A stretch of DNA of 64,000 bases, from assembly GCA_034440575.1 (NCBI GenBank), contig JAOTOL010001633.1, positions 3,247,911 to 3,311,910 on the forward strand, read 5' to 3'. Source of the DNA: Imbricaverruca yamaguchii (taxonomy: Eukaryota; Arthropoda; Thecostraca; Neoverrucidae). The notes under the pieces were generated by a model that was not told where the DNA came from, did no database searches, and saw only the letters and a list, made by a program, of their open reading frames with translations. A program made the translations under genes and the position numbers. Positions 2,783 to 58,136 of the stretch are shown piece by piece; within the stretch, counting starts at the first letter, position 1; every line of letters starts with the position of its first letter.

Positions 2783-2855
2783 GTTAGTTAGTATGTTAGT
2801 CAGTTAGTTATTGTGGTTTAGGGGCGCATCGACTGCATAGTTCACCTAGCGCCCC
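2783..2855 (+). mobile_element. tiny hairpin element, copy 1 (73 bp)
   Basis: Inserted between the direct repeats GGAATACCAA (2773-2782) and GGAAATACCAA (2856-2866). The 5' part is GTTAGT-rich and is followed by TTATTGTGGTTTA. A hairpin comes next, with perfect 7-bp arms GGGGCGC (2821-2827) and GCGCCCC (2849-2855), and ATCGACTGC directly after the first arm. It shares this layout with copies at 7128, 26305, 39599, 51106, 56563 and 57899. There is no coding capacity. The near-identical flanks read as a target-site duplication. Confidence 0.7.
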
Positions 2856-7127: not shown

Positions 7128-7184
7128 CGGTTGGTTGGTTATTGGAGGTCAGGGCGCATTGACTGCGTCGGTTATGCAGCGCCC
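7128..7184 (+). mobile_element. tiny hairpin element, copy 2 (57 bp)
   Basis: Flanked by ATTGCAATTAT (7117-7127) and ATTGCAACTAT (7185-7195), an 11-bp direct repeat with one mismatch. The 5' part is CGGTTGGTTGGTTATTGGAG. The hairpin arms are GGGCGC (7152-7157) and GCGCCC (7179-7184), with ATTGACTGCGTCGG after the first arm. The insert ends exactly with the second arm. Confidence 0.75.
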
Positions 7185-22255: not shown

Positions 22256-22424
22256 AACTGTGTGTTTTCGGCTCTATTCGACAATCCTCCACTTTGTGCT
22301 AGCCGTGCTCTTGATCAGCACTAGCTTGTCCAGTGACGACTGGTTTATCCTATTCAAAACGAGGAAGGGGAGAAGGACCGGGTTTTTTAGGGGGCCCCCC
22401 TCCCCCCCCCCCCCCCCCCCCCAA
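22256..22424 (+). other. copy-specific inverted insertion related to the exon 3 acceptor
   Basis: Absent from copy B, where CTCCTAAA is followed almost at once by TGACAAAATG (35,723-35,734). The first 100 or so bases match the reverse complement of 25,566-25,669 with a few differences. The match continues more weakly into exon 3 (ACGAGGAAGGGGAGAAGGAC here against ACCGAGGAAGGCGACATGGA there). The end is a G run and then more than 20 C residues. Confidence 0.85.
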
Positions 22425-23461
22425 TGACAAAATGCACCCATTGCCGAAGCAGCAACTTCTGCACTATGGTCAAGAGATACTTTTTAGTGAATTGAAGTGT
22501 TGAATTACTAAATGTACCTCCGTAATAGCATAAACTCGCACTTCCTAGTAACTGATACATCGTGCCATGCGTGCTTATGAGTGTGCAGTTTATATTTTCC
22601 CCAAATGTTGCCAAGATCACATAGGTTCTCATGACAATACAAATCATATTTGTCAAATGCGTCTAATCATGCATTTTTAAATTCATGATGCGATACATGG
22701 GATACCACTACTTACTTGCCTGGAGTCGATGAATCTTACTCTAACGAAGTTCGTTTTGGACCCCCTCATTTCAATACATTTGGATTCCATGGATCCTGGG
22801 ATCAGGCGTCTGGCTGGATACATCACGTGATGGCGTGGCGATCAGTCATGGTGTGTCTGTGTCACGTCATAAAATCCCTTCAGCCAATAGCGGCGGACAC
22901 CTGCACACCACCACCGTATAAGACTGGTGGGACTGTCACGTGATTGGGCAGTCGGTCAGGCTCGAACTCGCCCGCAAGGACAGTTCTCCGCTGACAAGCC
23001 ATTCGGCTCGGAACTGGCGGTGCGGGTGGACGTATGTGAGAGACGTGCTCACATACGGCACGGCTCACCGTATGTGAGACGGCGGCTGTGTCTTTGTTAA
23101 CGTTCGCATCCCTGAATTTGCGTCACTTTGCTAACGTTCGCATTCTTGAAACCGCTTAACCATTTGTAATCATTTGATTTGTCATTTAACAACTCAATAC
23201 AATGGCTTTAATCACGGTGGCTTTCCACAACAGCACTTGGATTTGGGAGAAGCGTCGAATGTGCGAACCAGTTATCGCAAAACCGAGGAAAAGCAGGACC
23301 ATCACTTCTGCCAGACAACATATTTCCTTATACTACATAGCGCATCGCACACGGGAGACAAACGTGAATAACGTACCAAAACTGGGGTGCCTGACTTCCG
23401 CCAAGGCTGGCGTCTGTTCCGATCTGGTGAAAAACCTGTCTCGCCGACAGCAGCTGCCTAC

Positions 23462-24483
23462 CTGTGTCCGCGGAGGTGAGCAGGACAGCGGCTCGGTCGG
23501 ACTCGCTGACCGTACGTCGCCACCACCACTCCACTGCGAGTCGCCCAGTGGGCTAGTGTCACCACCGCCGGTAGTGTCCGACGGATGCTCAGCACCAGAG
23601 CACCCGGATGTGCCATTCACGGCGACGGCGGCCGCCGCCACCAGCGACTTGTCCACCGTGAACGTGCCGAAGCGCTGCTTCTTGTCGACGCGGTACGTGC
23701 CTGTGGTGGGTCGGCACACGTTGTTGGCCTTGCGCGCCGGCTGCGCGCGAGACTGATGGGCGGTCGGGTCGCGCCCCTCGCTGGCCACCGGCCGATCCAT
23801 CGGTCTAGAAGCGAGACCGGTCGACTGCGCGCGCGTCTGATCGGCGGTCGGGTCGCGCTCCTCGCTAGCCACCGGTCGATCCATCGGCCTAGAGGCGCGA
23901 CTGGCCGGCTGCGCGCGCGTCTGATCGGCGGTCGGGTCGCGCTCCTCCCTGGCCACCGACCAATCCATCGGACCCGAACCGAGACTGGCGACGCCCTCGG
24001 ACGGGTCCTCGGCAGCGCAATCCAGCTCGCGCTGCTCCGTGGATGCCTGCTGGCGTGAGAAGGCGCAGGCGGCCGCCTGCCGGTCAACGCCTGACATTGA
24101 AGAGGTCGACCCTCGACTGGTCTCGGCGGCGGCAGGTTCCGGTGCAGGGTCACAACCGGCGCCAGCCGCATCTAAATTTGCACCAACTCTATCATCAGTC
24201 GTCCCCTTGCCCACCCTCATCTCGGGCATCGCGCACCGACTCTGGTCCAATCCAACGCCTGTCCGATGACCGCCGTCGGCGGGCGTCGCCGGCAGCGACC
24301 AGACGCACTGAGCTCGGACGTCGGCCGGCGTAGGGGACGGCGGCGGCGAGGCGTTCTCCAGGCATCCCGGGGGAGGCGAAACGCGCCCCAATGAGGGCAG
24401 CATCGCCGACTCCAGAGACATCAGCTCATTCTCGCCAGGTATGCTCATCTTAACGTCCAGCAACTCTGACGGCAAAGGCGGAG
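23462..24483 (-). CDS. exon 4 of the minus-strand gene, A copy (1022 bp)
   Basis: Acceptor GGTACCATGTCAG|CT, which completes an Ala codon with the last G of exon 3, and donor CGGACACAG|GTAGGC in phase 0. The 340-codon frame reads APPLPSELLDVKMSIPGENE, then Pro/Ser-rich sequence, then three diverged 28-residue repeats around MDRPVASEERDPTADQTRAQ. A short ordered-looking segment TGTYRVDKKQRFGTFTVDKS follows, then Gly/Ser/Thr-rich sequence. No domain was recognised. The frame stays open past the donor to 23,333, but the donor plus phase match with exon 5 favours splicing there. The large GC-rich open frame, kept in both copies without a stop, is the strongest coding evidence in the window. Confidence 0.8.
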
Positions 24484-25235
24484 CTGACATGGTACCGGGT
24501 AACAGGTATGACGGTGGACAGCAGAGTGGACAAAGTACCGGGTAATGCTCATGACGGTCGACAGCTTGCACAACACACGGTAGTTGGTGGCACACTTCGT
24601 AGCAATCAGGGAAGGGAAAACCTTAGAAACACGTAGTCGAAGCTGCCTATATCGCAACGGGGACACCAAGCACTTCAGCTGGGCATTTAAAGGCAGCAAA
24701 ATATAACAGCCAGGAATATAAAAAATGAACTACGTCGATGCGAAGGAGAAACACGCTAGTCTGTCCCTTTCCTCCCCTCTCGCACACATACCTTCACATG
24801 TCATCGCTTAACAGCCACTGGGCAAGGAGATTAATCCACTTCGTGCCCCTTGATGTGAACTGTTTGATCAAGTATATTTCACGGAAGTGTTCCTATCATC
24901 AATGTACGGTGTCTTGTAATGTTTAAAATGAAACAAGCATTGGCTTGTTCCCGTTGACTGGATCAATTGTCCGCTTTTTGCCCGTGAAGAAGGTATAAAG
25001 CAGCACGCATTGTTCCGATAAATTTTCCTGAAATTAATGATAAAACTAATACATTCAAAGGTCATCCTACGCTAGCTTCAACTGTGTACCATTCAGCAAT
25101 ACATTTATAAATATGGCAGATAAATATAAAAGGGGTGTGAGTTGGTGATAGAGAGTGAGAGCGAGTAATAGCGATTGAGTGAGTGATGGAGAGTGAGAGT
25201 GAGTAATAGCGAGTGGGTGAGACACCGTAGACAAG

Positions 25236-25236
25236 C

Positions 25237-25320
<84 letters not shown>

Positions 25321-25322
25321 GG
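25236..25322. repeat. (AGAC)n microsatellite, A copy
   Basis: About 21 tetranucleotide repeats, flanked on both sides by GAGTGAGA- and GACGGACAG-like simple sequence. Lies in intron 3. Length differs from copy B (38,526-38,613). Long Leu/Ser/Val/Cys-rich open frames here are an artefact of the repeat. Confidence 0.97.
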
Positions 25323-25483
25323 AGACGAACAGACGGACATACGGACAGAGATAGACGGACAGACGGACGGATGGACAGATGGCCAGACCAACAGACATAC
25401 AGATAGATAGATGGATAGAGACCGGGAGATAGGGAGAAAGTTAGAGTGAGAAATAGCACTTCATGCAGCACTCTCCCACTTAC

Positions 25484-25565
25484 CATCCTCCCTAGTCAGC
25501 GCGGCGAACTGGTCGGCGAGCATGAGCGCCTCCTGATACGCCAGGTCCATGTCGCCTTCCTCGGT
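25484..25565 (-). CDS. exon 3 of the minus-strand gene, A copy (82 bp)
   Basis: Acceptor CCTATTCAG|ACC and donor GATG|GTAAGT. Reads TEEGDMDLAYQEALMLADQF and AALTRED in phase 0, leaving one base. The peptide is acidic and could form an amphipathic helix. A diverged inverted copy of its acceptor region is present at 22,256-22,380 in this copy only. Confidence 0.75.
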
Positions 25566-26304
25566 CTGAATAGGATAAACCAGTCGTCACTGGGCAAGCT
25601 AGTGCTGATCAAGAGCACGGCTGGCACAAAGTGGAGGATTGTGGAATAGAGCCGAAAACACACAGTTTTAGTGATCGAATGCATCTGGCTTCCTTCATTT
25701 CGAGGAATGCAAATACGTGCAGGTACAATTTCAACACGTACGACACGGCATGTGATAATGATGCTTTGTGTTACTTGACACTGACCTTTAGCTTTATTCA
25801 TGCAACACCAATCTCCAAACAGATGTGAAAATATTGGTAAACTTGACAGTGGTAAGCATTTGCATGAGCTCACTGACTAAATTAAAGTAGATTCCTGAAG
25901 TGCTCTGGTAGCGAACGACATTGCATACGATGCTAGCATCTTAACGTGTCACAGCAATGAAAATGACTTTGTTGTGGACATATTTTTCGCGTTATCTTAA
26001 TATATGTATCTCATGAAGGCACCTTTCAGACATGCATATCATCTCCAGGACAATGTAGGACACCAAGAAGCGTATTCACCAAATTAAGTAAAGCTTGTGA
26101 GATGACACAAGGTGTGTTTGTCACAGTCGAGAAACTAGTCAGAATATTCACGAGAAATACCGAAACGCACTTTCAATGTGAACATAATTCACACTTGCAC
26201 ACACTCCGTACAATCTGATCCATGGTTGACATTATATCGCACAAAATCATCACATAATTTCGTTTTTTTAAAGCCAAATTTCTGCCCACAAAACCCGTAG
26301 TTGT

Positions 26305-26360
26305 GGTGGTGGTTGATTCGAGTTTAGGGGCGCGTCGACATCTAGGGTCACTTTGCGCCC
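26305..26360 (+). mobile_element. tiny hairpin element, copy 3 (56 bp), A copy of the block
   Basis: Flanked by AAACCCGTAGTTGT at 26,291-26,304 and at 26,363-26,376, a perfect 14-bp direct repeat. 5' part GGTGGTGGTTGATTCGAGTT, hairpin arms GGGCGC (26,328-26,333) and GCGCCC (26,355-26,360), GTCGACATCTAGGGTCACTT between them. Best example of the family. It lies in intron 2. Confidence 0.8.
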
Positions 26361-26409
26361 ATAAACCCGTAGTTGTACTTGCACTGGCGGCCAAAACGTC
26401 CGTCCGTCC

Positions 26410-27120
26410 GTGCCACTGCATGTCAACTCACGACCTGACCAGATCCGCTGCAGGTCAACTCACGACCTGACCACATCCGCTGCAGGTAAACTCACGACCT
26501 GACCACATCCGCTGCAGGTCAACTCACGACCTGACCACATCCGCTGCAGGTAAACTCACGACCTGACCACAGCTACTGCATGTCAACTCACGACAGGTCT
26601 ACATCCGACCACTACCCGAGACAACTCACGGCAAGTCAACACCCGACCACTACCCGAGACAATTCACGGCAGGTCCACACCCGACCACTACCCGAAACAA
26701 CTCATGGCAGGTCCACATCCGACCACTACCCGAGACAACTTACGGCAGGTCAACACCCGACCACTACCCGAGACAATTCACGGGAGGTCAACACCCGACC
26801 ACTACCCGAGACAACTCACGGCAGGTCCACACCCGACCACTACCCGAAACAACTCACGGCAGGTCCACACCCGACCACTACCCGAAACAACTCACGGCAG
26901 GTCCACACCCGACCACTACCCGAAACAACTCATGGCAGGTCCACATCCGACCACTACCCGAGACAACTTACGGCAGGTCCACATCCGACCACTACCCTAG
27001 GCAACTCACGGGAGGTCAACACCCGACCACTACCCGAAACAACTCACGGCAGGTCCACACCCGACCACTACCCGAAACAACTCACGGCAGGTCCACATCC
27101 GACCACTACCCTAGGCAACT
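26410..27120. repeat. 32-bp and 38-bp tandem repeats, A copy
   Basis: First about five units of 32 bp (CAGGTCAACTCACGACCTGA then CCACATCCGCTG), changing at about 26,580 into 14 units of 38 bp (CTCACGGCAGGTCCACACCC then GACCACTACCCGAAACAA). The array stops only 3 bases short of exon 2, so the GTGAGT donor of exon 2 is part of the last repeat unit (GGCAACTCAC on the plus strand). The open frames across it come from a unit that cycles through three frames. Confidence 0.95.
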
Positions 27121-27123
27121 CAC

Positions 27124-27276
27124 GGCGGCGAGGTCGTCGTCGGCGGGCGGCTGCGGCGAGCCTGCTGCTGTCTTCTGCTGACTGTTGTCGTGTTTCAGCC
27201 GTCCACTTGGGACGTCTGCCGGACGGCTGGCGGGCGTCCAGTTATTGTCCATGTCGTCATCGTCGTTGTTGTTGTC
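27124..27276 (-). CDS. exon 2 of the minus-strand gene, A copy (153 bp)
   Basis: Acceptor GTGCCCTACCCAG|GAC and donor GCCGCC|GTGAGT, phase 0-0, 51 codons. Starts DNNNDDDDMDNNW, an acidic Asn/Asp run, then a Pro/Ser-rich stretch ending PPADDDLAA. The donor lies in the first unit of the adjoining 38-bp repeat. Confidence 0.75.
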
Positions 27277-28135
27277 CTGGGTAGGGCACATTGGCATGAG
27301 CACGCCCTGCGCTGATCGGAAACACGGCTTGCACAAAGTGTAGTCTATTGCCGATGCAGATACGAACTGCGGTGTTACGCGCAGGTTCAACGTTGTAGTG
27401 AAACCGCGCCTCCAGTCATCTCGAAACATGCTAGCATAGTGTGCCAACGTCGTGTGTAACATATGTAATAACGTTGCTACTTGATACTGGCACGGTCTTG
27501 AAATAGCATATGAAAAGCTAAGTTAGCACTTGCTGGGTGGGGGGACTCCTAGAGTATGATGCCTGGTAGAGTATTATCGCACCAGTCTCACGTAAATCCC
27601 GATCCATATTGCATATCAGTGTGCAGTGAATCGGAATTAAACATAGCTTCGCTCCTGATCCCTGTCACCTTTGTAATACAATCGTGATTACACTTGGAAC
27701 AGGGTTGCAATACATCATGTAGTAAATACCCTGTGTGCAACGTTGATGTGGCTACTTCTACTACGAAAGATGAGATCGCACCAGGCCTGAGATTTAGCAA
27801 CGTTTCTGGACATCGTGAAAACCTACCTGAACGGCCTATAATATGCCTGCCTGCCTATATAGTACCATTGTCCAAGAAGTTGTGCTCCTTCAAAGTATGC
27901 AACGTGGATGAAAGTCGCTGATAGTACAACAGAAGGTAATTTACCACTCACGTGCCCGAAATAGTCTGACATTTTTTTTCTTCAACTTTACTTATTACAT
28001 TTGTCCAGAAGGTTTCTGTTTCACAGCCACATTTTTTCACACCAATCTGCACTGAAAGTAGACTTTTGTGGACCCATCCTCTCCCATACTCCCCCCACGC
28101 ATCCCCGATTGAACCCAACCCTAAATGCAAATGCA

Positions 28136-28745
28136 CTTAAGCGCAAAAGTACGTATGGGGAAATGTACGTAAGCGCAAATGTATGTTTGCGCAAAAATTC
28201 GTAAGCACAAATGCGCGCATGTGCAAAAGAACGCAAGCGCACATGTACGTAAGCGCAAACATACGTAACCACAAATATACGCAAACGCAAATGTACGTAA
28301 ACGTAGCGGCATGTAAACGTAAAAGTATGCAAAAGCAAATGTAGGTATGTGTCAATGTATGTACATTGAGGCAAACGTACTCGCACTCGCATACTTTTTG
28401 CGTTTAAGTACATTTGTGCAGACGTACATTTACGCTGACATACTCTTGCGCTTACGTACATTTGCGCATTCGTACATTTGCGCTTATATGTTTCTGCGCT
28501 TACGTACTTTTACGCTAAAGTACATTTGCTCTGACGTACATTCGCTTACGTACTTTTGTCATATGTACATTTGCTCTTTCGTGCATCTGCCATACGTGCA
28601 TTTGTCATACCTACTTTCGCGCTTTCGTATTTATGCGCTTACGTACATCTGCCATACGTACTTTTGTGCACATGTACATTTTCTTATGCACGCTTACGTA
28701 CATCTGCCATACGTACATTTGTCCTTACATATATTTGTGTTAGAA
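28136..28745. repeat. inverted array of a 16-bp repeat, A copy
   Basis: Left half (28,136-28,345) has about 13 units of ACGTAAGCGCAAATGT in one direction. The right half (28,370-28,745) has about 22 units of the reverse complement (ACATTTGCGCTTACGT). The two halves could pair into a very large stem. The array ends about 10 bp from the exon 1 donor. Confidence 0.9.
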
Positions 28746-28754
28746 TCAACTCAC

Positions 28755-29020
28755 AGTGATGAGGTCGCAGGGGAGCAGCTGCAGCGAGTCCTCGGACCGG
28801 CGACTGCTGCCGTTTCCTATCCGTTCATCCGACACATCTACCAGATGACCAGTGGGCACAGAAGTGGCCGAGGCACCCGTGGCGGGGGCGACAGGCCGGT
28901 ATCCGTCGCCGTCCAGCAGCGGTTCGGGCGACGCCTCCAGCTTGCTGTAGGGCAGCAGCAGGTTGAGCGGGTAGGTCGGCGGCGCGTCGGTGGTGTCCAG
29001 CAGCTCCACCAGCAGTTCGT
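28755..29020 (-). CDS. exon 1 of the gene model, A copy (266 bp; internal)
   Basis: Acceptor CCGTGTTTCAG|AC, taking two bases of a split codon, so an earlier exon must end in phase 1. Donor ATCACT|GTGAGT in phase 0. Reads ELLVELLDTTDAPPTYPLNL and further Pro/Ser/Gly-rich sequence to LPCDLIT. No domain recognised. The upstream exon was not found between 29,021 and the end of the block. Confidence 0.75.
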
Positions 29021-29154
29021 CTGAAACACGGAGGCACTGAAACGACGTCCGACACACGCAGGCTCGGCCACAACACAGCCTGCACAGCCGAGGCGAACGA
29101 AAGTAGTGTGGAGCACACTCGAAGCCATGCGCCGGACGTGCCTGCTGACACGAC

Positions 29155-29460
29155 ACTGTCGCCGTTTGTCGCAAGACAGTGGACACGACACGTCTGCTGA
29201 TTTGACACAGTCTGTCGCCGACACAGTGGACACACCGATACATCTGCTGACGCGACACAGTCGGTCACCGACACGTCTGCTGACGCGACACAGTGGACAC
29301 ACCGATACGTCTGCTGACGCGACACAGTCGGGCACCGACACGTCTGCTGACGCGACACAGTCGGCCACCGATACGTCTGCTGACGCGACACAGTCGGTCA
29401 CCGACACGTCTGCTGACGCAACACAGTCGGCCACCGATACATCTGCTGTGCGCGCCGTCC
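29155..29460. repeat. 33-bp tandem repeat, A copy
   Basis: About eight units of CACCGACACGTCTGCTGACG then CGACACAGTCGGC. Lies in the intron upstream of exon 1. Both strands stay open because the unit is 33 bp, but no splice-consistent exon uses it. Confidence 0.93.
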
Positions 29461-32400
29461 GGCCGGCCGGCCGAGTGCCACCGCCGGCCGGCGGACCGGA
29501 CGCTTATCAGTGCATGTCCGGCTGCTACTGACCAAGTCCCTACCACCGTCAGCGGAAGCTGTCTCACTTGCCTGCACACGTATGGCGTCACGTACACAGG
29601 CACCATTCGCCACACCCAACCTGGCTGTGGCTCCCAGACAGCTCGGTACATTGGCATGCGCATCGACGGTGGAGGGGGCGGTATCCGCCAAGCTCGTACG
29701 TTTTTCGACGATACCTCACAAACGGGCGGATATATTGTAATTCAATCTTACTATTTTGTTCAAATTCATTGGCAAATCCTATGCACGAAATCGAACTCCG
29801 TTCGTAGATATAGGGTAGACATAGGAAAATACGGTAAATATACACAGAACTGTGGGAAACAGTCTATTGACGTGCCGAAGTGCCGGCCGTCTGACCACCG
29901 AGCATTCAAGGCCACACAGGTTTCGTCGGCGCGGTCGCGCAGAGGCGAGTCGCGGCGGCCGATCTCAACGTCATTTGACCATGAAGTCATTGGCCTAGGG
30001 TCGATAAAATATACTGAAGGGAGTTCACTACAGCTGTGGTCAACTTCCCAAATGCTGTGCTTCCATCTTCTTAGGGGGCCAAACCCGCCTCTATGCTCCG
30101 GTGCGCGTTATGTGACAGGCCTTCCCGGGAGAAAGTTAAACTCAAGTGCATAAACTAATCTGCATCACTACTAATCTACATCGACGTTTTCAAACAAGTG
30201 ATGTGGGCTTTTTTTACAACCACGTAAATCAAGACAGATCATCGTTCCGAGTTGCCTCTTACACTGGTGACATGTGAACGTGACGCTGGGGTTCACGGGT
30301 CACGGCTCCAGGTGGTACACAAAGAAACACCAAATGTATGCAATTAAAAGTGAGTCATATGCTGAAGTGACAAACATTATGCTGCATTAGAGTCGTCGTT
30401 CGCTACATCTGACAACACTGACAGATTCAGCTGCACATCTCAGATGAGCAAAAAGGATGAATACTTGGAGTGTCTATTGTACTGACAAAAGTCAAAACTT
30501 TTAAATGAGGAGCAGATCCTGCTGAGAATCCTGAACATCGGATTTTGACAAAATACAGCTCTAGGAATCGCTGCATGAACATAATGTTGCTCCTTCGCGA
30601 ACATAAATTGATAGTCATATTTTCTTCCAGTTTTCAGGATTTAAAAATGTACTTGCATGTCTTGTATACAGTCTGCTGCATGCCTGAATTTGCTGATGTG
30701 TGGCACACGCTTCCAGACATAACTTAGAAATGCAGGTCTTTGCATACACGAAATTGAATGCGATTTTATCACTTTCAGAAAATACCAATAAATGGTTTTC
30801 ATGCACTAGCCATGCACAATCTGATGCCACTTAGGGACTTCCAAACAGAAGTAGTGGTATTGAAAGTTGCAAACTACATATCAGGAGTTTTCCAACTTAG
30901 GTGTGGTTGATCTCTATATGATCATGTCACATATATAACCATGCCTTCCACAAAACATACTGTGCATCACAGGTTGTACCCTGCTACATCTGCAGTGCCT
31001 CACTATTTTAAGGCCTCATGGAAAACTGTTCATGAAAGATATATAAATGCTATGGTACAACATCCTTGGTCACATACATACATGGAAGCAATACCAAAAA
31101 TCAAACTTTGTGCCCTATTCTGAGCAAGCATTGTCCTCTTGAAAGGTGTCCAGGTCCATACTGGGCCCAGTGAACAAAAGACTGCTTGGGTGAAATGGAG
31201 CAATGTCATAGGCATAGGCAGAGGTTCAGAGGCAGATTACCATTGTAATCTTTATACTGATGATGCAGGTCTGCCAGTGTTAATCCTATGACAGGATAAT
31301 ACTTCCCATTCCCTTGTATTTGGTAGGTAGCAAGTGGTTGCATAAAACTATGCCAAAGATTCTAATTCTAGAAAGAATACCCCACACTGGAATGACATAC
31401 CAACCTGTTGAACCATCAGAGTGGTTTGTCATGTCATATAAAATAGCAGATAAAATGTAACCATTTGCAGCCTATTATAGGTAATCTTATGGACTTCAGA
31501 GCAGTCTCTCAGATAAATATTTTGCAGCATGTGAGTGGAAAATTTGTTATCAAAAGGTAGTTCAAGAACAGGAGAATTTCAGCACAATATAGTGAGTTCT
31601 GGATAAGTGTGGTTCTCTCACCATTTCTGTGTGGACTTCCAGCAGTTTCTGGTATTTCTAACTGGCTGTCCATCACTGAACATGAAGGAGCCTGACACAG
31701 TGGAGAAAACGTCACAGCTGATCTGAAATCACAGTTGTATTGATAAGATTGCTTCTGTGTTATTATTGTGGTCTAGGGTCACATCAATTGCAATAATCTA
31801 TATGATTTACAAGAAACTGTCATGATGGTGGTACATGTCATATGCCATACATGCATAAAACATGTGTATGATTTAACAAATGCAGACAAATTGTGCAGGC
31901 AGATGGTATGATTAGTTCAGAGCATGAATCATAATGCCATGAGGCCATTCACCACAGCTTTCACAGGAAGTTGGGATATGGCACATACACCAGGCACAGT
32001 GTTCAGCAATGTCAGACATGTGCAGCTGCAAAAGGCTGGTAGTGGGCAGGAAGGGCACTTCAGTTAGGCAACATAAGAAATGAAATGCTTGAAAAATAAA
32101 AAAATGCCACATGATGTAAGGTAACCTAGACAAACCTCCATCCAGAAGTTTTTTTAATGGAGACATTAGTACTAATTTATATCATGAAGGTCTAAAAATA
32201 AAAAAACAACAACCCTACCCTAGCATAACATTAGCTGCTTTGAAAGAAAAACAATTGTTATTTTTTTCCTTAATAGCCAAAAACAACTTCCAACTTATAA
32301 AACCTAAACTAAACCTAACTAAACTAAACTAAACAAAACAAAACAAAACTAAACTAAACTAAACTAACCTGACCTGACCTGACCTAATCTAACCTATGCA

Positions 32401-33440
32401 AACTTGGCTGACATTTGCTTTATATTATAGTTATTAACAATGTACCACATTTGTGCTCAGAGTTGCTTTAAAACTATGTATATACATGTCAGCTTTGGAA
32501 ACAGTTCATTTATTGTCCATTATTGGAGATTATCTGCAAAATTTAGAGTACTAGGTCCCAGAAATGGGAATACTGACTCACCAGCTTTGCCAATTTTGGA
32601 ACAATCTTCACTGCCCTCATTTTTAGCAGTCAAGAAAAATTGTGTTTTTCAGCGATTGTGTTTGTCAATTTGGTCATGGTACTAAGGAAAACACAGTTGA
32701 AGCATAATCCTTACATGTAAAAAATGCAACAAAGACATATCAGGAAATTCAGGTATTACTGCAGATTAAGGTAACCAGAAATTAAGTTGTGCAACCATTT
32801 TTACCTCCATAAAGCATACAAAGGGGTTAGGTTTGGCTAAGTCAGGTCAGGTCAGAGTTTTGCTGTGTTACACAAATTTTAATTTGAAAACAAATTGAGC
32901 AAAACAAATAATTTGTTTTCTTCAAAACAGTTCAGGCAACCTTAGGTTAGTTTATGTCAGGTTTTCTATTATAAAATTTTGGGGAAAAAATAGCTTGGAA
33001 ATTGTACATTTTTAACAAAATAAGTTGCCCTCTTGCATGGAAGGATTAAGGTATGTAAATGTTTGCAGCATTACTTCATAAGATAGCATTAAAATTGTAT
33101 CACATTTTCCTCTGTTTTATGCAGGTGATGTCATAAATTGTATAAACCTTCTTAGAATTAAAGTTCAGTTACAGAGAAAATGAATGGTTGCACCATCTTA
33201 ACCACATCAAAAAACAGTATATTCAACAAGAAAGAAATCCAAGGAATCAAATTTTATCTTGATCTCCAAATTTACCAGATCATTCCATTATCAGTGGTCA
33301 TAAAGACACAAAGACATAACAGATTAGCACAACTATGAGGCACAAGGGCCCTTCTTGGATGCACTCTGTACACTCAACCAGATCCCCACCATATCTGTCA
33401 ATCAGCCCTCCCTGTAATACTGAAAAGCCAGCCCTCTGTT
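29461..33440. other. large unassigned part of the duplicated block, A copy
   Basis: GC-rich to about 30,000, then AT-rich. No supported gene. 32,290-32,395 is an (AAACT)n/(GACCT)n-like low-complexity stretch. A possible relative of the tiny hairpin elements (TTATTATTGTGGTCTAGGGT) is at about 31,757. Confidence 0.5.
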
Positions 33441-34215
33441 CTTATAATTATTGTCCATGCTGTTTTTTAAAGATGTTCAATGTGCTGCTACTGACAATGG
33501 TTTCTGGCAGCTGGTTCCAGTGTTCTACTACCCTGTTGGTAAAGAAAGTCTGTCTTAACCTTGTTCTGCTGTGGTTAACTTCAATTTTGAATTTATGACC
33601 TCTAATTGCATCATTTCTGTTAAATTCAAACATTTCCCCAAGATATCACCTCTCCAGACCATGGACAAATTTAAAGACCTCAATGAGATCTCCTCTCAGC
33701 CTTCTACATCTATGTGAAAAAAAAACATATTCAATTTCTTCAATCTTTCCTCATATGCCAGGTTGCTTATACCAATAACCATTTCTGTAGCCTTCTTTTG
33801 TACTCTCTCTAAAAGCCAACAATCTTTTTCATAGCTAGGAGACCAAGCTTGGATGCAGTATTCCAAATGTGGCCTGACATTTGCACAGAAAAGCTTCCTG
33901 ATGACTTCCTCACTTCTGTATGATACATTCCTATTGATTGCCCTGAGCATTCTCAGTGCCTCCTTCCTGGCTTCCTCAGTCTGTTCTGATGCCCCCAATT
34001 TTGTGTTTAGAATAACACCTAAATCATTCTCCTGTTGAGTCACTGATAGATCTTTACCACCCATCAAGTATGGAGCCTTCATATGCTGCTTACCTACATG
34101 AATGATTTTACACTTATCAAAACTAAATTTAATTTGCCATTCTTCGGACCAATTCACAAGTTTGTCTAAGTCTTTTTGTAACAAGATATGCTCATTGTGA
34201 CCTGTTATTGCCCTA
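33440..34215 (-). pseudogene. 5'-truncated CR1/L2-like LINE fragment, A copy
   Basis: Minus-strand frames encode the end of a non-LTR reverse transcriptase: LDKLVNWSEEWQIKFSFDKC, then NDLGVILNT, CANVRPHLEYCIQAWSPSY, LERVQKKATEM, and in a second frame FFTNRVVEHWNQLPETIVSS. The catalytic YADD motif lies upstream of the preserved part. A run of 9 A residues near 33,717 shifts the frame. The B copy has 10 and stays open about 17 codons further. The element is dead and encodes only a fragment. Confidence 0.85.
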
Positions 34216-34830
34216 GACCTTCAAATCATCTGCAAATTTCAAAACCTTACTGCTTATGCCACAAAATGGTCACAACATACCATAAATGATTTATGAATAC
34301 CATGTAGATTGGGTTGGCATTTTGGAAACTAGCATTCCCAATGATGGAAGTACTTTCCAAAAATGTAAGGCTTCCAAACATGGAAAGTTCTCAACGATGG
34401 AGAATAAATAAATAGATAACTACCTATTGTCTCACAAGCTGAAGCGTTGAGAATGGATGAACAGACATCCTTCAAAATAGACTTCTTGCACTGCACCTTG
34501 CACACTTGCTTCAAATAGTTGGTGCAGCTAGTGCATCTGTTCTTCCAAGGGTTGGTGCAACTTTTCCATGTGACCATACATAGGCTGTGCAGCCCATTGA
34601 GCTGTCTGCCATGTTGCACATGCAACTGGTCTAGGTCCTACCTACCCACCTGGTGCCTACATGCAAATGGCTGATGCTTCGACATGCCAGAAAGCAAAAG
34701 ATTGCCAAATTTCAATGCAAACAGTTCCTAGGTACCTACCTCTTAAATGTATAAATATTTGTGGTTGCATACCATACGTATTGAACGCATAACCCCCACA
34801 GGCTACGGCATTATTGCTGTTCAACGTAAC

Positions 34831-35585: not shown

Positions 35586-36761
35586 CTGCAACAGCCACCG
35601 TGCCAGCATTACTTGACAGGCAAGTGAAGGTCGTGAAATGACAATATCATTGCCAGGATCACCATGGTGTTGTAGTCTTTTACTCCCTTGTTCCCTTGTT
35701 CACTTTCCTTCAGGATGCTCCTAAACGATGACAAAATGCACCCATTGCCGAAGCAGCAACTTCTGCACTATGGTCAAGAGGTACTTTTTAGCGAATTGAA
35801 GTGTTGAATTACTAAATGTACCTCCGTAATAGCATAAACTCGCACTTCCTAGTAACTGATACATCGTGCCATGCGTGCATATGAGTGTGCAGTTTATATT
35901 TTCCCCAAATGTTGGCAAGATCACATAGGTTCTCATGACAATACAAATCATATTTGTCAAATGCGTCTAATCATGCATTTTAAATTCATGATGCGATACA
36001 TGGGATGCCACTACTTACTTGCCTGGAGTCGATGAATCTTACTCTAACGAAGTTCGTTTTGGACCCCCTCATTTCAATACATTTGGATTCCATGGATCCT
36101 GGGATCAGGCGTCTGGCTGGATACATCACGTGATGGCGTGGCGATCAGTCATGGTGTGTCTGTGTCACGTCATAAAATCCCTTCAGCCAATAGCGGCGGA
36201 CACCTGCACACCACCACCGTATAAGACTGGTGGGACTGTCACGTGATTGGGCAGTCGGTCAGGCTCGAACTCGCCCGCAAGGACAGTTCTCCGCTGACAA
36301 GCCATTCGGCTCGGAACTGGCGGTGCGGGTGGACGTATGTGAGAGACGTGCTCACATACGGCACGGCTCACCGTATGTGAGACGGCGGCTGTGTCTTTGT
36401 TAACGTTCGCATCCCTGAATTTGCGTCACTTTGCTAACGTTCGCATTCTTGAAACCGCTTAACCATTTGTAATCATTTGATTTGTCATTTAACAACTCAA
36501 TACAATGGCTTTAATCACGGTGGCTTTCCACAACAGCACTTGGATTTGGGAGAAGCGTCGAATGTGCGAACCAGTTATCGCAAAACCGAGGAAAAGCAGG
36601 ACCATCACTGCCAGACAACATATTTCCTTATACTACATAGCGCATCGCACACGGGAGACAAACGTGAATAACGTACCAAAACTGGGGTGCCTGACTTCCG
36701 CCAAGGCTGGCGTCTGTTCCGATCTGGTGAAAAACCTGTCTCGCCGACAGCAGCTGCCTAC

Positions 36762-37783
36762 CTGTGTCCGCGGAGGTGAGCAGGACAGCGGCTCGGTCGG
36801 ACTCGCTGACCGTACGTCGCCACCACCACTCCACTGCGAGTCGCCCAGTGGGCTAGTGTCACCACCGCCGGTAGTGTCCGACGGATGCTCAGCACCAGAG
36901 CACCCGGATGTGCCATTCACGGCGACGGCGGCCGCCGCCACCAGCGACTTGTCCACCGTGAACGTGCCGAAGCGCTGCTTCTTGTCGACGCGGTACGTGC
37001 CTGTGGTGGGTCGGCACACGTTGTTGGCCTTGCGCGCCGGCTGCGCGCGAGACTGATGGGCGGTCGGGTCGCGCCCCTCGCTGGCCACCGGCCGATCCAT
37101 CGGTCTAGAAGCGAGACCGGTCGACTGCGCGCGCGTCTGATCGGCGGTCGGGTCGCGCTCCTCGCTAGCCACCGGTCGATCCATCGGCCTAGAGGCGCGA
37201 CTGGCCGGCTGCGCGCGCGTCTGATCGGCGGTCGGGTCGCGCTCCTCCCTGGCCACCGACCAATCCATCGGACCCGAACCGAGACTGGCGACGCCCTCGG
37301 ACGGGTCCTCGGCAGCGCAATCCAGCTCGCGCTGCTCCGTGGATGCCTGCTGGCGTGAGAAGGCGCAGGCGGCCGCCTGCCGGTCAACGCCTGACATTGA
37401 AGAGGTCGACCCTCGACTGGTCTCGGCGGCGGCAGGTTCCGGTGCAGGGTCACAACCGGCGCCAGCCGCATCTAAATTTGCACCAACTCTATCATCAGTC
37501 GTCCCCTTGCCCACCCTCATCTCGGGCATCGCGCACCGACTCTGGTCCAATCCAACGCCTGTCCGATGACCGCCGTCGGCGGGCGTCGCCGGCAGCGACC
37601 AGACGCACTGAGCTCGGACGTCGGCCGGCGTAGGGGACGGCGGCGGCGAGGCGTTCTCCAGGCATCCCGGGGGAGGCGAAACGCGCCCCAATGAGGGCAG
37701 CATCGCCGACTCCAGAGACATCAGCTCATTCTCGCCAGGTATGCTCATCTTAACGTCCAGCAACTCTGACGGCAAAGGCGGAG
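36762..37783 (-). CDS. exon 4, B copy
   Basis: 1022 bp, same acceptor (CCATGTCAG) and donor (CACAG|GTAGGC) as 23,462-24,483. The predicted protein appears identical over the whole exon. Perfect conservation while neighbouring introns carry indels may reflect either recency or allelism. Confidence 0.8.
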
Positions 37784-38525
37784 CTGACATGGTACCGGGT
37801 AACAGGTATGACGGTGGACAGCAGAGTGGACAAAGTACCGGGTAATGCTCATGACGGTCGACAGCTTGCACAACACACGGTAGTTGGTGGCACACTTCGT
37901 AGCAATCAGGGAAGGGAAAACCTTAGAAACACGTAGTCGAAGCTGCCTATATCGCAACGGGGACACCAAGCACTTCAGCTGGGCATTTAAAGGCAGCAAA
38001 ATATAACAGCCAGGAATATAAAAAATGAACTACGTCGATGCGAAGGAGAAACACGCTAGTCTGTCCCTTTCCTCCCCTCTCGCACACATACCTTCACATG
38101 ATCGCTTAACAGCCACTGGGCAAGGAGATTAATCCACTTCGTGCCCCTTGATGTGAACTGTTTGATCAAGTATATTTCACGGAAGTGTTCCTATCATCAA
38201 TGTACGGTGTCTTGTAATGTTTAAAATGAAACAAGCATTGGCTTGTTCCCGTTGACTGGATCAATTGTCCGCTTTTTGCCCGTGAAGAAGGTATAAAGCA
38301 GCACGCATTGTTCCGATAAATTTTCCTGAAATTAATGATAAAACTAATACATTCAAAGGTCATCCTACGCTAGCTTCAACTGTGTACCATTCAGCAATAC
38401 ATTTATAAATATGGCAGATAAATATAAAAGGGGTGTGAGTTGGTGATAGAGAGTGAGAGCGAGTAATAGCGATTGAGTGAGTGATGGAGAGTGAGAGTGA
38501 GTAATAGCGAGTGGGTGAGACACCG

Positions 38526-38527
38526 TC

Positions 38528-38613
<86 letters not shown>
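38526..38613. repeat. (AGAC)n microsatellite, B copy
   Basis: Counterpart of 25,236-25,322 with a slightly different repeat number and left junction (CCGTCAGAC against CCGTAGACAAGC). Confidence 0.97.
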
Positions 38614-38615
<2 letters not shown>

Positions 38616-39598: not shown

Positions 39599-39654
39599 GG
39601 TGGTGGTTGATTCGAGTTTAGGGGCGCGTCGACATCTAGGGTCACTTTGCGCCC
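39599..39654 (+). mobile_element. tiny hairpin element, copy 3, B copy of the block
   Basis: Duplicate of the 26,305-26,360 insertion with the same AAACCCGTAGTTGT flanks (39,585-39,598 and 39,657-39,670). It was present before the 13-kb block doubled. Confidence 0.8.
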
Positions 39655-39704
39655 ATAAACCCGTAGTTGTACTTGCACTGGCGGCCAAAACGTCCGTCCG
39701 TCCG

Positions 39705-50460: not shown

Positions 50461-51105
50461 AACGAATTAAAAAAGCATGTTTCGCTTGCAGATCGCCGGA
50501 CATCTCATGTCAGCGATAGTTTAGTATTCGCCTCGCTTGTACTATTGGCGTCATAAATAGCTCGGCGGCAGTCAGGCTGGGCATCCTGGCACCTGTACAT
50601 CCTGCATGTGTATAGGGGTGGTGGGAAGCAGCATACGTAAGCAGGGCATTCAGATGCTGGGACGTTCGGCCTTGTTGCCAATCCATTTATGAGATCAATG
50701 GCGAGTATGTGTGGTTGGAAACAATATATCTATACAGGATGTAGGTGTCAATACGCCCAACCTGACTACCAAGCTATTTGTGACGCCAATAATACGACCT
50801 TTAAGTCCAACAACCCTTACTGGCCTTGTATTGGCCTGGGTGATAACTAACTAAACAGGAACAGCTTGTTATAAAAACAGTTTTACCGGCAACTGAAGCG
50901 TACGACGGCGCGTAGTTTTGCAATGAAGTATACGACGGCGCGTGGTTTTGCGAGATTCGTATCTGAAAGTTTTTAGACGCATCCGTCACGCACAACCGCT
51001 CAATTTTGGCTCACTCAGTTACACATCGCGGTAACATGATCAATTACGCGGTAACGTGACCGGTAACGTAGAAAGGTTTCGAGCCGCGCACAACACGCAT
51101 TGCTG
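50461..51105. other. unassigned
   Basis: No gene or repeat recognised between the satellite and hairpin copy 4, apart from a duplicated GAAG(C/T)(G/A)TACGACGGCGCGT (50,895 and 50,927). Confidence 0.45.
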
Positions 51106-51157
51106 ATGATTATTGGGGTTTTAGGGTGCGTCAACCCATGTGGAGTATACTGCACCC
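51106..51157 (+). mobile_element. tiny hairpin element, copy 4
   Basis: ATTATTGGGGTTTTA followed by arms GGGTGC (51,124-51,129) and GCACCC (51,152-51,157), with GTCAACCC after the first arm. Relative to other copies both arms changed together (GGGCGC/GCGCCC to GGGTGC/GCACCC), which keeps pairing. No clear target-site duplication is seen. Confidence 0.55.
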
Positions 51158-52049
51158 ATATCAGACTAGCTTAGAAACGCGTCAGATTGTCACGTTCGGG
51201 TAAAACATGTCTGGGGGAGTAAGATGTCACCTAGGCAGGTACATATATGACTTGAACTAGTATCTCCGCGAGGAAGGCCAAAACTGCTCTGTTGTATACA
51301 AATCGGGAATCGTTTCCAAGTAAGTCCACTAATCAGGGATGCGGAGCCGGAGCCGTCAAAAGCAGGGCGGCTCCGACTCCGAGACGGGTGAAATTAAACA
51401 ACCAAAATTAGCAAACGTGAAAATGAATGCAACACATCATACCTAGTATGGTATGGTATGGTATGAAAACGGACTTTTAAAAGCAAAAATGTTGAAATAC
51501 GAGTAACATGTATAAATATCAGCAAACAATGGTAGAATAACCAGAAACCATATTCTAGCCTCAGTAGTCAATGCAATAGTTCCATGTTTAGTTTAGTTAA
51601 GTTCATTGTTTCAATCATCTACGGGTTCTTGTACCTTATTTGAGATGAGGTCAAACATTACAATTTACAACGGTATTCCTTGGACCATTCGCGGGATCGG
51701 GAGTGTTGTTGATTCGAGTCTCCCCTCTTCTGATTGCTCCAATACGGCACGAAGCAAGCGTCAGTTTACGAGGTCATAACACCGAGAAGTGATTTGGGCG
51801 GGTGCTGGTGTTTATTTAAAGAGAGATACAGGGTTTATATTGGAAAGTTACTTATAATTGTCTGAAGTTAGCGCCTCTGAGTGGTCGGGGCTAGTTAAAA
51901 AAAAAATTATCCTAGCTCTTACTTAATGGATCTATCACGTTTGGGATGTACGGAGCCGGCGCCGGTACATTTTTCCCGGAGCCGGAACCGGAGCCGCCGG
52001 GAGCCGGAGCCGGAGTCGTCCAAAATTTCCCAGGCTCCGGATCCTTGCC
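51158..52049. other. unassigned, with two GGAGCCGGA patches
   Basis: 51,338-51,395 and 51,945-52,045 share GGAGCCGGAGCCG-type low-complexity sequence next to GTCAAAA/GTCCAAAATTTC, suggesting one dispersed element in two copies. The second abuts the end of the Jockey-like element. (TATGG)n at about 51,450. Confidence 0.5.
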
Positions 52050-53255
52050 ACTAATCTAAGAGTATGCGCTTCATATCCGAAGTGCCGCCTGCGTTCTTCT
52101 GCATATGCTGGGCACGTCACCAGCACGTGATGCACAGCCAGCGCGGCATTACACTTCACGCATTTCAGCCTGTCGTCCCCGCACAGTAAGTATATATGTG
52201 TTGCTAGCGTGTGTCCAATTCTGAGTCGACAAATGGCAACTTCGTCCCTCCTAGCTCGGCCGAATGACAATGGCCATAGCGTTAAGTGTGGTTTGATTCA
52301 CTTTAATTTGCCTTGCTCCATTCGGTGCCAGCTTTCCTGTCACTGCCTGTAAGGAAATGATGATATAGTTTGGTAGTGGTCACTTGCTGGAAGTGGAAGC
52401 GCACGACATTGCGCATATCCCGCACGCCCTGCAGCCTGATCTGCCAGCTCATTTCCGCGGATTCATACATGTGTTTGAATCCAACAAAGTGTGACTTGCT
52501 TTCCCATACGATGGAGCGAAGTGAGTTGTAATAAAATGTCTTGTACAATGACGTTTTGGGGATAGAAACTACGCAATGCCAAGAGACTGCTGAGAGAGTC
52601 AGTCAGGATAACATGTGAAACCTCGTCATCAACCTCGATGTATGCCAGTGATTTGCTGATGGCAATCAACTCGGCAGTGAAGACCGTGGCATGTGGTGGC
52701 AGGGAAAATGATCTTTTGACGGATCCTGTCACAAAGGTACCACCCACTCCGGTGTTTACCTTCGAGCCGGCCGTGTAGGTGGAGGCAATTTTGGTACATC
52801 GTGGATATATGTTCTAACGAGTTTAAGTGCAACTCCTCTTTTGTGACATTTCGCTTTCTCCTGTCAGCAAGGGGAACATCGATAGACGGGGAGATCAGCT
52901 CCCACGGAGGAACAGACAGTTCTTCATATTGCCGAATTCCTTGTAGTCGTATTTCCATTTGTCCCAGGAGCGTCTTCATTCGCACATAGTATGACGTTCC
53001 TCTCCTAATGTGATTTCGAAGAATCGCGTGCGCGTCATGAGAAAAAACTACCGGATAAGATGGGTGTGTCGGGAACTGTCGCATTTTGCAGGCGTATCGA
53101 AGGTCTAGCATGTCTCGTCGCATAGACAGTGGAGGCTGATGAGCATCTACTAGCACGCGAAATGCCCCCGTAATTATGTGTACCGCGGCATGATGTACTG
53201 GGTCAAGCGTACGCTTTGTAGTAGCTCACGCGCCATTGTATATAAAACAAGCGTA

Positions 53256-54589
53256 CAGGGTGCGCGGAAAGTCCTGGCGCTTTTCAACATTTTCGCAAAC
53301 AAATGCAACTGGCTCATATATATTCAACAACAGGTCGTAACAGTGACTGGGAACAACAAGCCACATCCTTTCACCAACCGCTCACTCGATGTAACCGCCC
53401 TCGGCGGCGATGACGGCCTCGACGCGAGAGCGGAAGCCCTTGCAGGTCCTGATGATGTAGGCCGCCTCCAGCGCCTCCCACGCCGCCACGATGCGAGCCT
53501 TGAGCGACTCCAGGTTGGGATGAGAAGTGGCCTAGACCTCATCCTGCAGAACGCTCCACACGCTGTAATCGAGCGGGTTGAGGTCGGGCGACTGAGGCGG
53601 CCACATCTCCTTCCGCCAGAAGTGATCTGGCCCGCCGAGCTCCTCTGTCAGCTTGGCTTGGATGGCGGTGGCGTTGTGGGCGGGCGCTCCGTCCTGTTGG
53701 AAGACAAAATTGCCCTCCGGGTAGGTCGCCTTGACCCAGGGGATGACGTGCGTGTCCAGGAGCCCCTCGTAGACCTGCCTGTTGATTTTCTCGTTGGCGT
53801 CGATGAAGATGATGGGGCATTTCTGCCCGTCGGACCCGACGACACCCAGGACCATCACCTTCTGCGGGTGCTTGTTCACGGAGTTGAACCGAATCCGGGG
53901 GTCCACTTCGTCAACAGGTTGGTCGGACAGGTAGCGGGAGTTCCTCCGGTTCAGCTGGGCGTCGACGTGGAAGAGCTTCTCATCGGAGAAGATCCGAACG
54001 AAGCCGGTGGTCACCGGGCTCTTGAAGAAGTTGAGCAGCAGCTTGCTCTTCTCCAGACGGCGGAGACGCGTGGCCTCGGTTAAACGCGGCCTGTTATGGA
54101 GCACTCTGGACTCCATGTTCAAGTCTTGGTGGATCAATTCCCGCATTGATGTCTCGGGAAAGCTGAACTTCTTCGCCAGTTTTCTGATTGACTGCCGCGG
54201 ATTTTCTTCGATTGCTTCTGACACGGCGGCCACGTTCTCGGGAGTTCTGAGCGACCGCGGCCGACCTGACCTGGGGGCATCTTCTAAGGACTCCACAGAT
54301 CGGATCTTCGCCTTTATCCGCTTGAACCGTTCGCCGAGAAACGCTGCATCGTTCCGCAACTTGCGCCTCGGTTAAGCCGAACCCGGCCGCCGCGCGCAGG
54401 CAGCCAGCGACAAGGTGCCGCTTCGTCTGTTTATCCATGACTGAACGCGATTCGAAGGCCATATTTGCACGCCCCCCGGCTGACCGGGTCGGCGAGGGTC
54501 ACGCCTGCGGCCATTGACAGACTGGCCACCAATCACAGCGCGCGCTGGCAAGCATACCAGAAAAGCGCCAGGACTTTCCGCGCACCCTG
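53256..54589 (-). mobile_element. Tc1/mariner-superfamily element nested in the Jockey-like element
   Basis: 1334 bp with perfect 30-bp terminal inverted repeats (outer end CAGGGTGCGCGGAAAG) at 53,256-53,285 and 54,560-54,589, flanked by TA at 53,254-53,255 and 54,590-54,591. The transposase gene lies on the minus strand. Removing the element and one TA restores the host frame exactly (SKLDY joined to ACFIYNG), which fixes the insertion site and order of events. The perfect inverted repeats suggest a recent arrival. Confidence 0.97.
53382..54462 (-). pseudogene. mariner-like transposase, one frameshift and one nonsense codon
   Basis: Begins MAFESRSVMDKQTKRHL (an alternative start, Met 54,438) with a helix-turn-helix region TEAQVAERCSVSRRTV. 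A one- or two-base indel near 54,320-54,335 then shifts the frame into RIKAKIRSVESLED. The AT-hook-like GRPRS linker follows, then catalytic motifs IFSDEKLFHVD, FQQDGAPAHNA and PPQSPDLNPLDYSVW. Forty residues separate the second and third catalytic Asp. TAG at 53,534-53,532 replaces a codon after LQDEV, and the frame continues as SHPNLESLKARIVAAWEALE to the expected end GGYIE-stop. All three catalytic Asp are kept. The enzyme would cut and paste at TA sites, but this copy cannot make a full protein. Confidence 0.93.
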
Positions 54590-54900
54590 TAGTCAAGCTT
54601 CGAGCGGATCAGACTACAATACAACAGGTGTAGTGTCTTTCTATCAGCACCGTATGACGTACGAGCCACATACTTCAGTATTGCAATTGCTTTAAAACAT
54701 TTGTCTCTGAGTGTTTTTATATGATCTCTGTATGTTAGATGATGGTCAAGCTGCACACCAAGGAAACGAGACACTGTTGCAGGTACATTTTGCCCATACA
54801 AACTCAACGCCATGTCAGGGCAGCTACGCCTACGTCGACAGAAATGAATCTTGAATCCACCACAACACGCATTGTGAAGTGTCTTCTTCGGGCGGGGTGA

Positions 54901-56454: not shown

Positions 56455-56800
56455 TCTCAGGTTGTATTCCTGCAACTGGTAATATTTCAGGTTGCATTCC
56501 TTCATCTTGTATTCTTCAAACTTGCATTATCTTCACCTGTATTCTCTAACATACATTATTTCGAGATTAAGAGCGCATCGACTGCGTCGGTCATGCAGCA
56601 ACATACATTCTTTCAAATTGCTCTTTGTTCATCTATTATTCTTTGGACTTCCATTATTCCAGAGTGTATTCTTCTGACTCGTATCCATAATATTTCATTC
56701 TTTCAACTTGTCTGTTCGACCAAAAAGAAAAAGAAAAAGGAATGGGGTGGACAATTATTTTTTGTCAAGAAGTTCGATTTTGGGTTCGAATTACTAGTGG
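56455..56800. repeat. ~300-bp segment, copy 2, with a hairpin insertion
   Basis: Same order of blocks as 55,976-56,280 (CTTCAACTTGT, TTGCATTAT, CAAATTGCTCTTTG, TTCGATTTTGGG). It contains the 37-bp insertion 56,563-56,599 and a duplicated 15-bp target. Confidence 0.8.
56563..56599 (+). mobile_element. tiny hairpin element, copy 5 (37 bp, 5'-shortened)
   Basis: GAGATTAAGAGCGCATCGAC plus TGCGTCGGTCATGCAGC, flanked by AACATACATTATTTC (56,548-56,562) and AACATACATTCTTTC (56,600-56,614). The paralogous segment at 56,050-56,070 has a single uninterrupted target. This pair is the clearest filled/empty comparison in the window. Confidence 0.75.
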
Positions 56801-57898: not shown

Positions 57899-57991
57899 TG
57901 GTGGCAGTGGATTGGAGTTTAAGGTAGCATCGACATCAAGGGTCATTTTGTGCCAGAACTGAGTTTTAATAAATCAGATTTTAATATTTTA
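57899..57991 (+). mobile_element. tiny hairpin element, copy 6 (93 bp)
   Basis: Flanked by ATAATGGATATGG (57,886-57,898 and 57,992-58,004), a perfect 13-bp direct repeat. 5' part TGGTGGCAGTGGATTGGAGT, then TTAAGGTAGCATCGACATCA and GGGTCATTTTGTGCC; the arms have decayed (GGTAGC/TGTGCC). An extra AT-rich 3' tail of about 37 bases precedes the second flank. Confidence 0.7.
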
Positions 57992-58008
57992 ATAATGGAT
58001 ATGGGATT

Positions 58009-58060
58009 CAGTTAGTTATTTGGGATTTAGGGTGCTTCAACCCGAATTGATCATTTGTGG
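58009..58060 (+). mobile_element. tiny hairpin element, copy 7 (degenerate)
   Basis: CAGTTAGTTATTTGGGATTT then AGGGTGCTTCAACCCG, matching the 5' half of the family, directly after copy 6. The second arm is not clear and no duplication is seen. Confidence 0.4.
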
Positions 58061-58136
58061 GATCTAGCATTGTGATAACGAACATTCTGTAGTGCAACTC
58101 CAGGTAAGGGATCATCCATGTGCTATGTTATACAAG

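Follow-up and report, generated by a model that had tools for sequence, protein, structure and literature searches.

Tiny hairpin insertions in Imbricaverruca yamaguchii carry the 3' end of a LINE family

Results

Hairpin-bearing insertions in the window

The window analysed here is a stretch of 64,000 nucleotides of the forward strand of contig JAOTOL010001633.1 (positions 3,247,911 to 3,311,910; assembly GCA_034440575.1) of Imbricaverruca yamaguchii. The original prediction, made from these letters alone, described a family of tiny hairpin-bearing insertions with target-site duplications, and the motif is indeed present at all eight of the sites that it named. The corresponding features are the following, in window coordinates.

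2783..2855, minus strand: hairpin-only insert, made of hairpin, box and ACTAAC-type tail (minus-strand sense); direct repeats GGAATACCAA at 2773-2782 and GGAAATACCAA at 2856-2866
7128..7184, minus strand: hairpin-only insert that starts exactly at the hairpin base; direct repeats ATTGCAAYTAT at 7117-7127 and 7185-7195
26305..26362, minus strand: hairpin-only insert with AT ahead of the stem (element sense); direct repeats AAACCCGTAGTTGT at 26291-26304 and 26363-26376
39599..39656, minus strand: duplicate of the 26305 insertion through a 12.4-kb duplication; repeats at 39585 and 39657
51103..54860, minus strand: 5'-truncated LINE, of which the 51106 copy is the 3' end
51124..51157, minus strand: 3'-terminal hairpin of this LINE, of the GGGTGC...GCACCC subfamily
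56563..56599, minus strand: copy of 37 bp, truncated within the 5' arm of the hairpin; repeats AACATACATTMTTTC at 56548-56562 and 56600-56614
57899..57991, minus strand: copy running 36 bp past the hairpin; direct repeats ATAATGGATATGG at 57886-57898 and 57992-58004
58007..58063, minus strand: additional copy of hairpin and tail (the 58009 site)

The sense of the element is that of the minus strand, in which the hairpin (GGGCGC...GCGCCC) is followed by a box of approximately TAAACYCNAAT, then by tail repeats (units AACC, AACT, ACC or ATC) and finally, where present, by the target repeat. The GT-rich side, which had been taken for the 5' part, is therefore the 3' repeat tail, and the orientation first proposed has to be reversed. 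We take the motif to be reminiscent of the tails of arthropod SINEs, a likeness that is not used as evidence.

The five direct repeats described at first are found where they were placed (2773/2856, 7117/7185, 26291/26363, 56548/56600 and 57886/57992), but they are not the only ones: the 51106 copy also has such a repeat, CACAACACGCATTG, which had been missed because it spans 3758 bp. The repeat at 56563 is weaker evidence than the others, because a degenerate 15-bp tandem array (56462-56544) adjoins it. For the 58009 copy, exact matches of at least 11 bases were sought up to 63240 and no direct repeat was found.

As the inserts at 26305 and 39599 both lie in a 99.76% identical, 12.4-kb alignment, they represent one insertion event, so that the eight sites amount to seven independent copies. 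The direct duplication itself (22424-34830 and 35728-48121) is either a very recent segmental duplication or the trace of two haplotypes retained in the assembly. The seven unique copies were used, as had been suggested, to build a covariance model, which recovers the eight sites, all matched on the plus strand, with E values from 4e-15 to 7e-7, the next best match in the window having an E value of 0.03; the model was trained on these same sites, and the gap measures separation from the background only.

Elsewhere in the window, a dispersed repeat that begins like a tRNA (GGGGTGGCCGAGCGGTTAAGGTG) occurs at 1335-1508, 2934-3095 and 62168-62328 and is probably a SINE with a different tail; it was considered as a SINE carrying the hairpin tail and rejected, its 3' parts differing when compared by eye. 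A reverse transcriptase fragment of another LINE lies on the minus strand at 33696-34220 and 46936-47511, the former giving an RVT_1 match under the cut-off, and a 154-bp satellite forms two arrays in opposite orientation (48936-50466 and 63246-64000). ARAGORN (bacterial code) detected no tRNA gene in the window, and no Rfam family matched it at the gathering threshold. Viral contigs gave no exact match to one 21-base form of the motif.

LINEs ending in the hairpin

The LINE at 51103-54860 is a 5'-truncated insertion, because the 14-bp repeat CACAACACGCATTG flanks it at both ends (51089-51102 and 54861-54874). Pieces of its ORF can be followed from about 54860 to a stop in the vicinity of 51230, below which lie the hairpin and the tail. 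They comprise a C-terminal piece of the reverse transcriptase, a piece of RNase H and what looks by eye like a C-terminal domain. The RNase_H family is matched in Pfam with an E value of 1.1e-8, one stop being read as X. The reverse transcriptase pieces have no Pfam match, either singly or joined through X, and over 88 columns the reverse transcriptase piece has 58% identity (E 3e-30) to that of another LINE of the genome (L109, see below); a 198-aa piece of the window LINE has no protein relative at E ≤ 0.001. Two further elements are nested in this LINE, a mariner-like element (53254-54591), which has 32-bp inverted repeats and a frame that matches DDE_3, and a hAT-like insert (51334-52047), which has similar inverted ends and the 8-bp sequence ATTAGTGG on either side. 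The LINE and mariner content marks the window as eukaryotic.

The RNase H piece of the window LINE was searched for in the whole assembly (767.5 Mb, 1430 contigs), where 150 of 7592 first-look candidates were scored. Twenty loci were taken from these 150, spanning 62-100% identity to the window LINE, and 1.3 kb downstream of each was examined. The same hairpin, in the sense orientation, lies downstream of RNase H at 16 of the 20 loci, its 3' arm being about 520-795 nt past the RNase H match. None was seen at three loci (L030, L035 and L048), and the remaining one (L029) gave a weak match only (E value 0.04), truncated where the stretch ends. At the LINE ends read, the hairpin is usually preceded by GTTAT or a near variant such as GATAT.

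The LINE L109 has a single frame of 1105 aa that contains an endonuclease (PF14529, 1.6e-19), a reverse transcriptase (PF00078, 2.6e-27) and an RNase H (PF00075, 4.3e-9), and the stretch that follows this frame (L044) includes the hairpin. Its upstream frame has zinc-knuckle-like cysteines by eye, an 85-aa piece being without Pfam match. Sequence matches in the PDB (R2, LINE-1 ORF2p, TRAS1 and one 'RNA-directed DNA polymerase') are too distant for the clade to be placed; we take RNase H-bearing LINEs to be the I superfamily in the wide sense.

All these results show that the hairpin, the box and the AAYC-like tail are the 3' end, approximately the 60 last bases, of a LINE family. The proposal of a separate mobile unit without a parent is thus not supported, as the hairpin ends 16 of the 20 RNase H LINE loci as well as the window LINE: the LINE with the same 3' hairpin that was to be looked for exists, and the motif is part of a longer LINE tail.

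Among the matches listed, 12 RNase H places are 100% identical to the window LINE. They probably include copies of one insertion, because two copies of the hairpin read elsewhere (L133 and L139) match not only the 3' end of the window LINE but also the flank beyond its direct repeat. This insertion seems to be carried within a larger duplicated segment.

Fold and covariation of the hairpin

Thirty-three hairpins were picked by hand from 93 distinct ones, truncated ones and many near-repeats being left out. The fold consists of a 6-bp outer stem, an asymmetric internal loop (4 and 2 nt in the single folds of three subfamilies) and an inner stem; an alternative inner stem was rejected, since it pairs in just 47% of cells. 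Across the 33 hairpins, 93.0% of the cells of the 10 pairs are paired, and 6 of the 10 pairs vary on both sides, a number reached in 5 of 500 shuffles. The covariation score is 0.288, compared with 0.170 ± 0.013 in shuffles (0 of 500 as high), and falls to 0.115 or less when the partner is shifted by 1-3 columns. Further pair types are no more numerous than in shuffles (10 vs 10.4; 429 of 500 as high). RNAalifold, unprompted, gives nearly the same fold, and three subfamilies taken singly fold alike (z from -2.4 to -3.8). Judging from these alignments, the hairpin covaries between subfamilies.

Direct repeats and 5' boundary of the genomic copies

Exact matches to the hairpin pattern number 11,425 in the genome, split almost evenly between the strands (5583 and 5842), while reversed-pattern controls give 0 and 1; with over 11,000 exact copies, the predicted family is thus real. 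The tail-side pattern, composed of the tail-side arm and the box, ignores the 5' arm, so that intact hairpins are not selected; it has 11,818 matches (6070 and 5748; controls 0 and 0). The main sample comprises 96 copies read of 100 places listed (L009-L028, L049-L108 and L110-L129), which were the first listed and lie on contigs below 65 kb, and is not a random sample of the genome. Removal of 6 duplicates and of 6 copies in tandem arrays leaves 84; a duplicate pair (L120/L123) is still within these, and without it 83, 42 and 27 replace the numbers 84, 43 and 28 used below. Inserts within arrays (e.g. L072, L080 and L097) adjoin uninterrupted units, and direct repeats there prove little.

To find direct repeats, the tail side was compared with the last ~250 nt upstream, a score of at least 10 being required and the expectation being derived from 3325 swapped flank pairs. 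Such repeats are found in 43 of the 84 copies, against 3.0 expected, and the length of the repeated segment varies from 10 to 20 nt. Repeats are thus far above chance, contrary to what would have spoken against the family, and the LINE-style, target-primed insertion with variable-length duplications that had been proposed is supported. Of the first 76 copies, among which are 3 duplicates and 5 tandem cases, 42 have repeats scoring at least 9 within 40 nt, compared with 11 of 597 swapped pairs. In the last 20, which were fetched later and judged by a score rule fixed beforehand, 14 score at least 10, compared with 55 of 751 swapped pairs, duplicates on both sides and one tandem case being included. 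The other 41 of the 84 copies have no repeat scoring at least 10; many of them have the longer LINE context and would start beyond the ~250 nt read, and others may be old. When flanks were joined as empty sites, they matched across the junction their own loci only, one of them also matching the overlapping locus L004, among the sequences fetched.

The position of the 5' start is highly constrained. In 28 of the 43 copies with repeats, it lies 0-4 nt before the hairpin base, where 0.1 would be expected. Another 8 have their start within the hairpin (4 of them by 1-5 nt and 4 deeper), 2 start at +5 to +9 and 5 further out (+10 to +250), a region in which about 2.9 are expected by chance. Starts from the hairpin interior to +9 make up 38 of all 84 copies (45%), and those at 0-4 nt make up 28 (33%); a third or more of the copies sampled therefore consist of hairpin and tail alone. 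The claim that inserts end at or close to the second arm needs correction for the 57899 copy, which runs 36 bp beyond. With the target repeat at 0-4 nt from the hairpin, these copies also agree with the claim that there is neither a tRNA head nor room for a promoter. Such 5' ends are unusual, as they are not scattered over the element in the way that is usual for 5'-truncated LINE copies.

Among 52 intact copies, the stem is preceded by T in 49, by AT in 38 and by GTTAT in 19; without these 19, 30 of the remaining 33 have T and 19 have AT. In the whole genome, AT precedes the stem in 5828 of 9416 intact 33-mers (62%) and the GTTAT context accounts for at most 2,387 copies (counted with a looser right end), so that AT outside the GTTAT context clearly exceeds 1 in 16. 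This excess indicates that many copies retain only one or two LINE bases past the stem, the AT class being partly made of LINE-context variants. The preference for a target site is weak, T being ahead of the duplication in 14 of 26. A minor class of inserts begins ahead of GTCGA, at the apical loop or within it, and keeps only the 3' arm and the tail (L051 and L115, with L104 and L106 at a lower or ambiguous score).

The second, smaller subfamily (pattern TTGANGCACCC...) has 536 copies, of which the first 20 listed were read (18 without the duplicate pairs L133/L139 and L134/L137). Repeats score at least 10 in 10 of the 20, compared with 27 of 763 swapped pairs, two of the ten (L131 and L143) lying within longer repeats. 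Partly by eye, L131, L134 and L145 start inside the 5' arm, at the GC of GGGTGC, L132 starts in the apical loop and L130 60 nt upstream, and the appearance of a whole-stem, hairpin-only insert is limited to L149 and L141, the latter having an internal deletion; four or five copies are long (L133, L140, L144, L146 and perhaps L138). The boundary at the hairpin edge is thus not universal, and the usual stop differs by several bases between the subfamilies, which speaks mildly for an abortion of synthesis over an RNA end made by a nuclease.

Discussion

It is very probable, in our opinion, that the segment is the 3' recognition module of a LINE family and that the tiny inserts are target-primed products that often end at the far end of the hairpin. 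The parent LINEs would encode endonuclease, reverse transcriptase and RNase H, with their own RNAs as template; the enzyme would start on the repeat tail and then copy the hairpin. In a large share of events, synthesis would reach the far end of the hairpin and stop there or just beyond, and hairpin and tail alone would be joined between the duplicated target bases. As to the enzymology of this cDNA stop, we infer that the preferred cause would be early abortion, with a protein that does not release its recognition hairpin. Within this overall reading, early abortion appears moderately likely, a short RNA template is a possible but doubtful cause, and any other cause is improbable.

The alternative that survives best, which we nevertheless consider rather unlikely, is that the template itself is short. 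LINE RNA would decay from its 5' end up to the hairpin, where the stable 3' structure, perhaps protein-bound, would block the nuclease, and the remnant of ~60 nt would still prime and be copied fully. The 5' boundary of the main subfamilies is indeed as sharp as an RNA end (T in 49 of 52 copies, AT in 38), and the bases past the T are sometimes unlike the LINE (GT, GGCT, TAGT), as is possible at the end of a template. However, the 8 of 43 copies that start inside the hairpin fit a stalled nuclease less well, and so do the several copies of the second subfamily that begin four bases within the 5' arm. Early abortion of reverse transcription thus remains the cause that we prefer.

A SINE-like or independent unit, with a transcription of its own and merely sharing the LINE tail, is very unlikely. 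SINEs that share the tail of a LINE are a known pattern (PMC3747384), but in 28 of 43 copies the hairpin is separated from the target repeat by 0-4 nt, which leaves no space for a head or a pol III promoter. Moreover, hairpin-only inserts are found with many different hairpins, and one of them (L118) has a 33-nt hairpin identical to that of the LINE ends L040, L042 and L044.

Ordinary random 5' truncation, in which a hairpin-sized class would be seen only because hairpins were sought, is slightly less likely still. Truncated copies predominate in LINE families generally (PMC3747384; PMC2887409), and long copies are present in this genome too. The concentration of 28 of 43 starts in a 5-nt interval is nevertheless obtained with a pattern that needs no 5' arm, and just 5 starts lie between +10 and +250, where chance would give about 2.9. 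Finally, a small DNA transposon or foldback element, suggested by the inverted repeat and the target duplication, is hardly conceivable, as the duplications range from 10 to 20 nt rather than being fixed, one of the arms is followed by the box and repeat tail so that the arms are not at both ends, and the same sequence terminates LINEs.

A further reading, in which our belief and our doubt are nearly balanced, is that hairpin and tail could form a minimal retro-unit of ~60 nt, the hairpin end acting as a checkpoint comparable to promoter escape. A large share of products would then end there, either by programmed abortion or by the use of a discrete LINE 3' RNA of ~60 nt as template. If true, solo hairpins would constitute a class of retro-insertions in their own right, and a very abundant one. 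Why LINE copies truncate where they do is a long-standing question, and here many natural insertions record a stop at nearly one position, which is the edge of a recognition-type hairpin. The idea that the enzyme must release its recognition hairpin in order to proceed becomes testable. For annotation, our results are also a warning that repeats of ~60 bp with target duplications can be LINE ends and not a new class of element. Among the matches listed in the open-licence literature, there was no report of LINE insertions made of hairpin and tail only as a main product.

Recognition of a 3' stem-loop is a property of stringent LINEs, and the stem-loops that have been compared contain an asymmetric loop (PMC5135761; PMC3747384). 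The hairpin described here is shaped like these recognition hairpins, and a recognition role is predicted for it by analogy. As in UnaL2, ZfL2-1/2 and SART1, the stem-loop is 3'-terminal and is interrupted, a few pairs short of the apical loop, by an asymmetric internal loop, and, as in UnaL2, a short repeat tail follows (PMC5135761); in contrast, the LINE group here is RNase H-bearing, with endonuclease, reverse transcriptase and RNase H in a single frame (L109) as in other LINEs of this kind, and both the sequence and the repeat unit differ. In zebrafish L2, the region between endonuclease and reverse transcriptase is described as binding the loop (PMC4176376), and, for the R2 protein, unstable templates are reported to go with more 5'-truncated insertions (PMC11331408).

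Among families of short inserts, HaSE1 is a SINE having the same 3' end as its partner LINE HaRTE1 (PMC3272025), whereas the elements here are without a pol III head or body. The lepidopteran microsatellite families, which are 5'-truncated RTE copies easily mistaken for SINEs, are reminiscent of the present inserts by their truncated 3' ends, simple-repeat tails and target duplications (PMC2887409); the words hairpin and stem-loop are absent from the main text of that article. The RTE copies described there keep reverse transcriptase coding sequence (PMC2887409), whereas here hairpin and tail alone, with a fixed start, are a main product. The module and the insertion route are therefore of known kinds, and it is the clustering of the 5' ends at the hairpin edge that is the surprising part.
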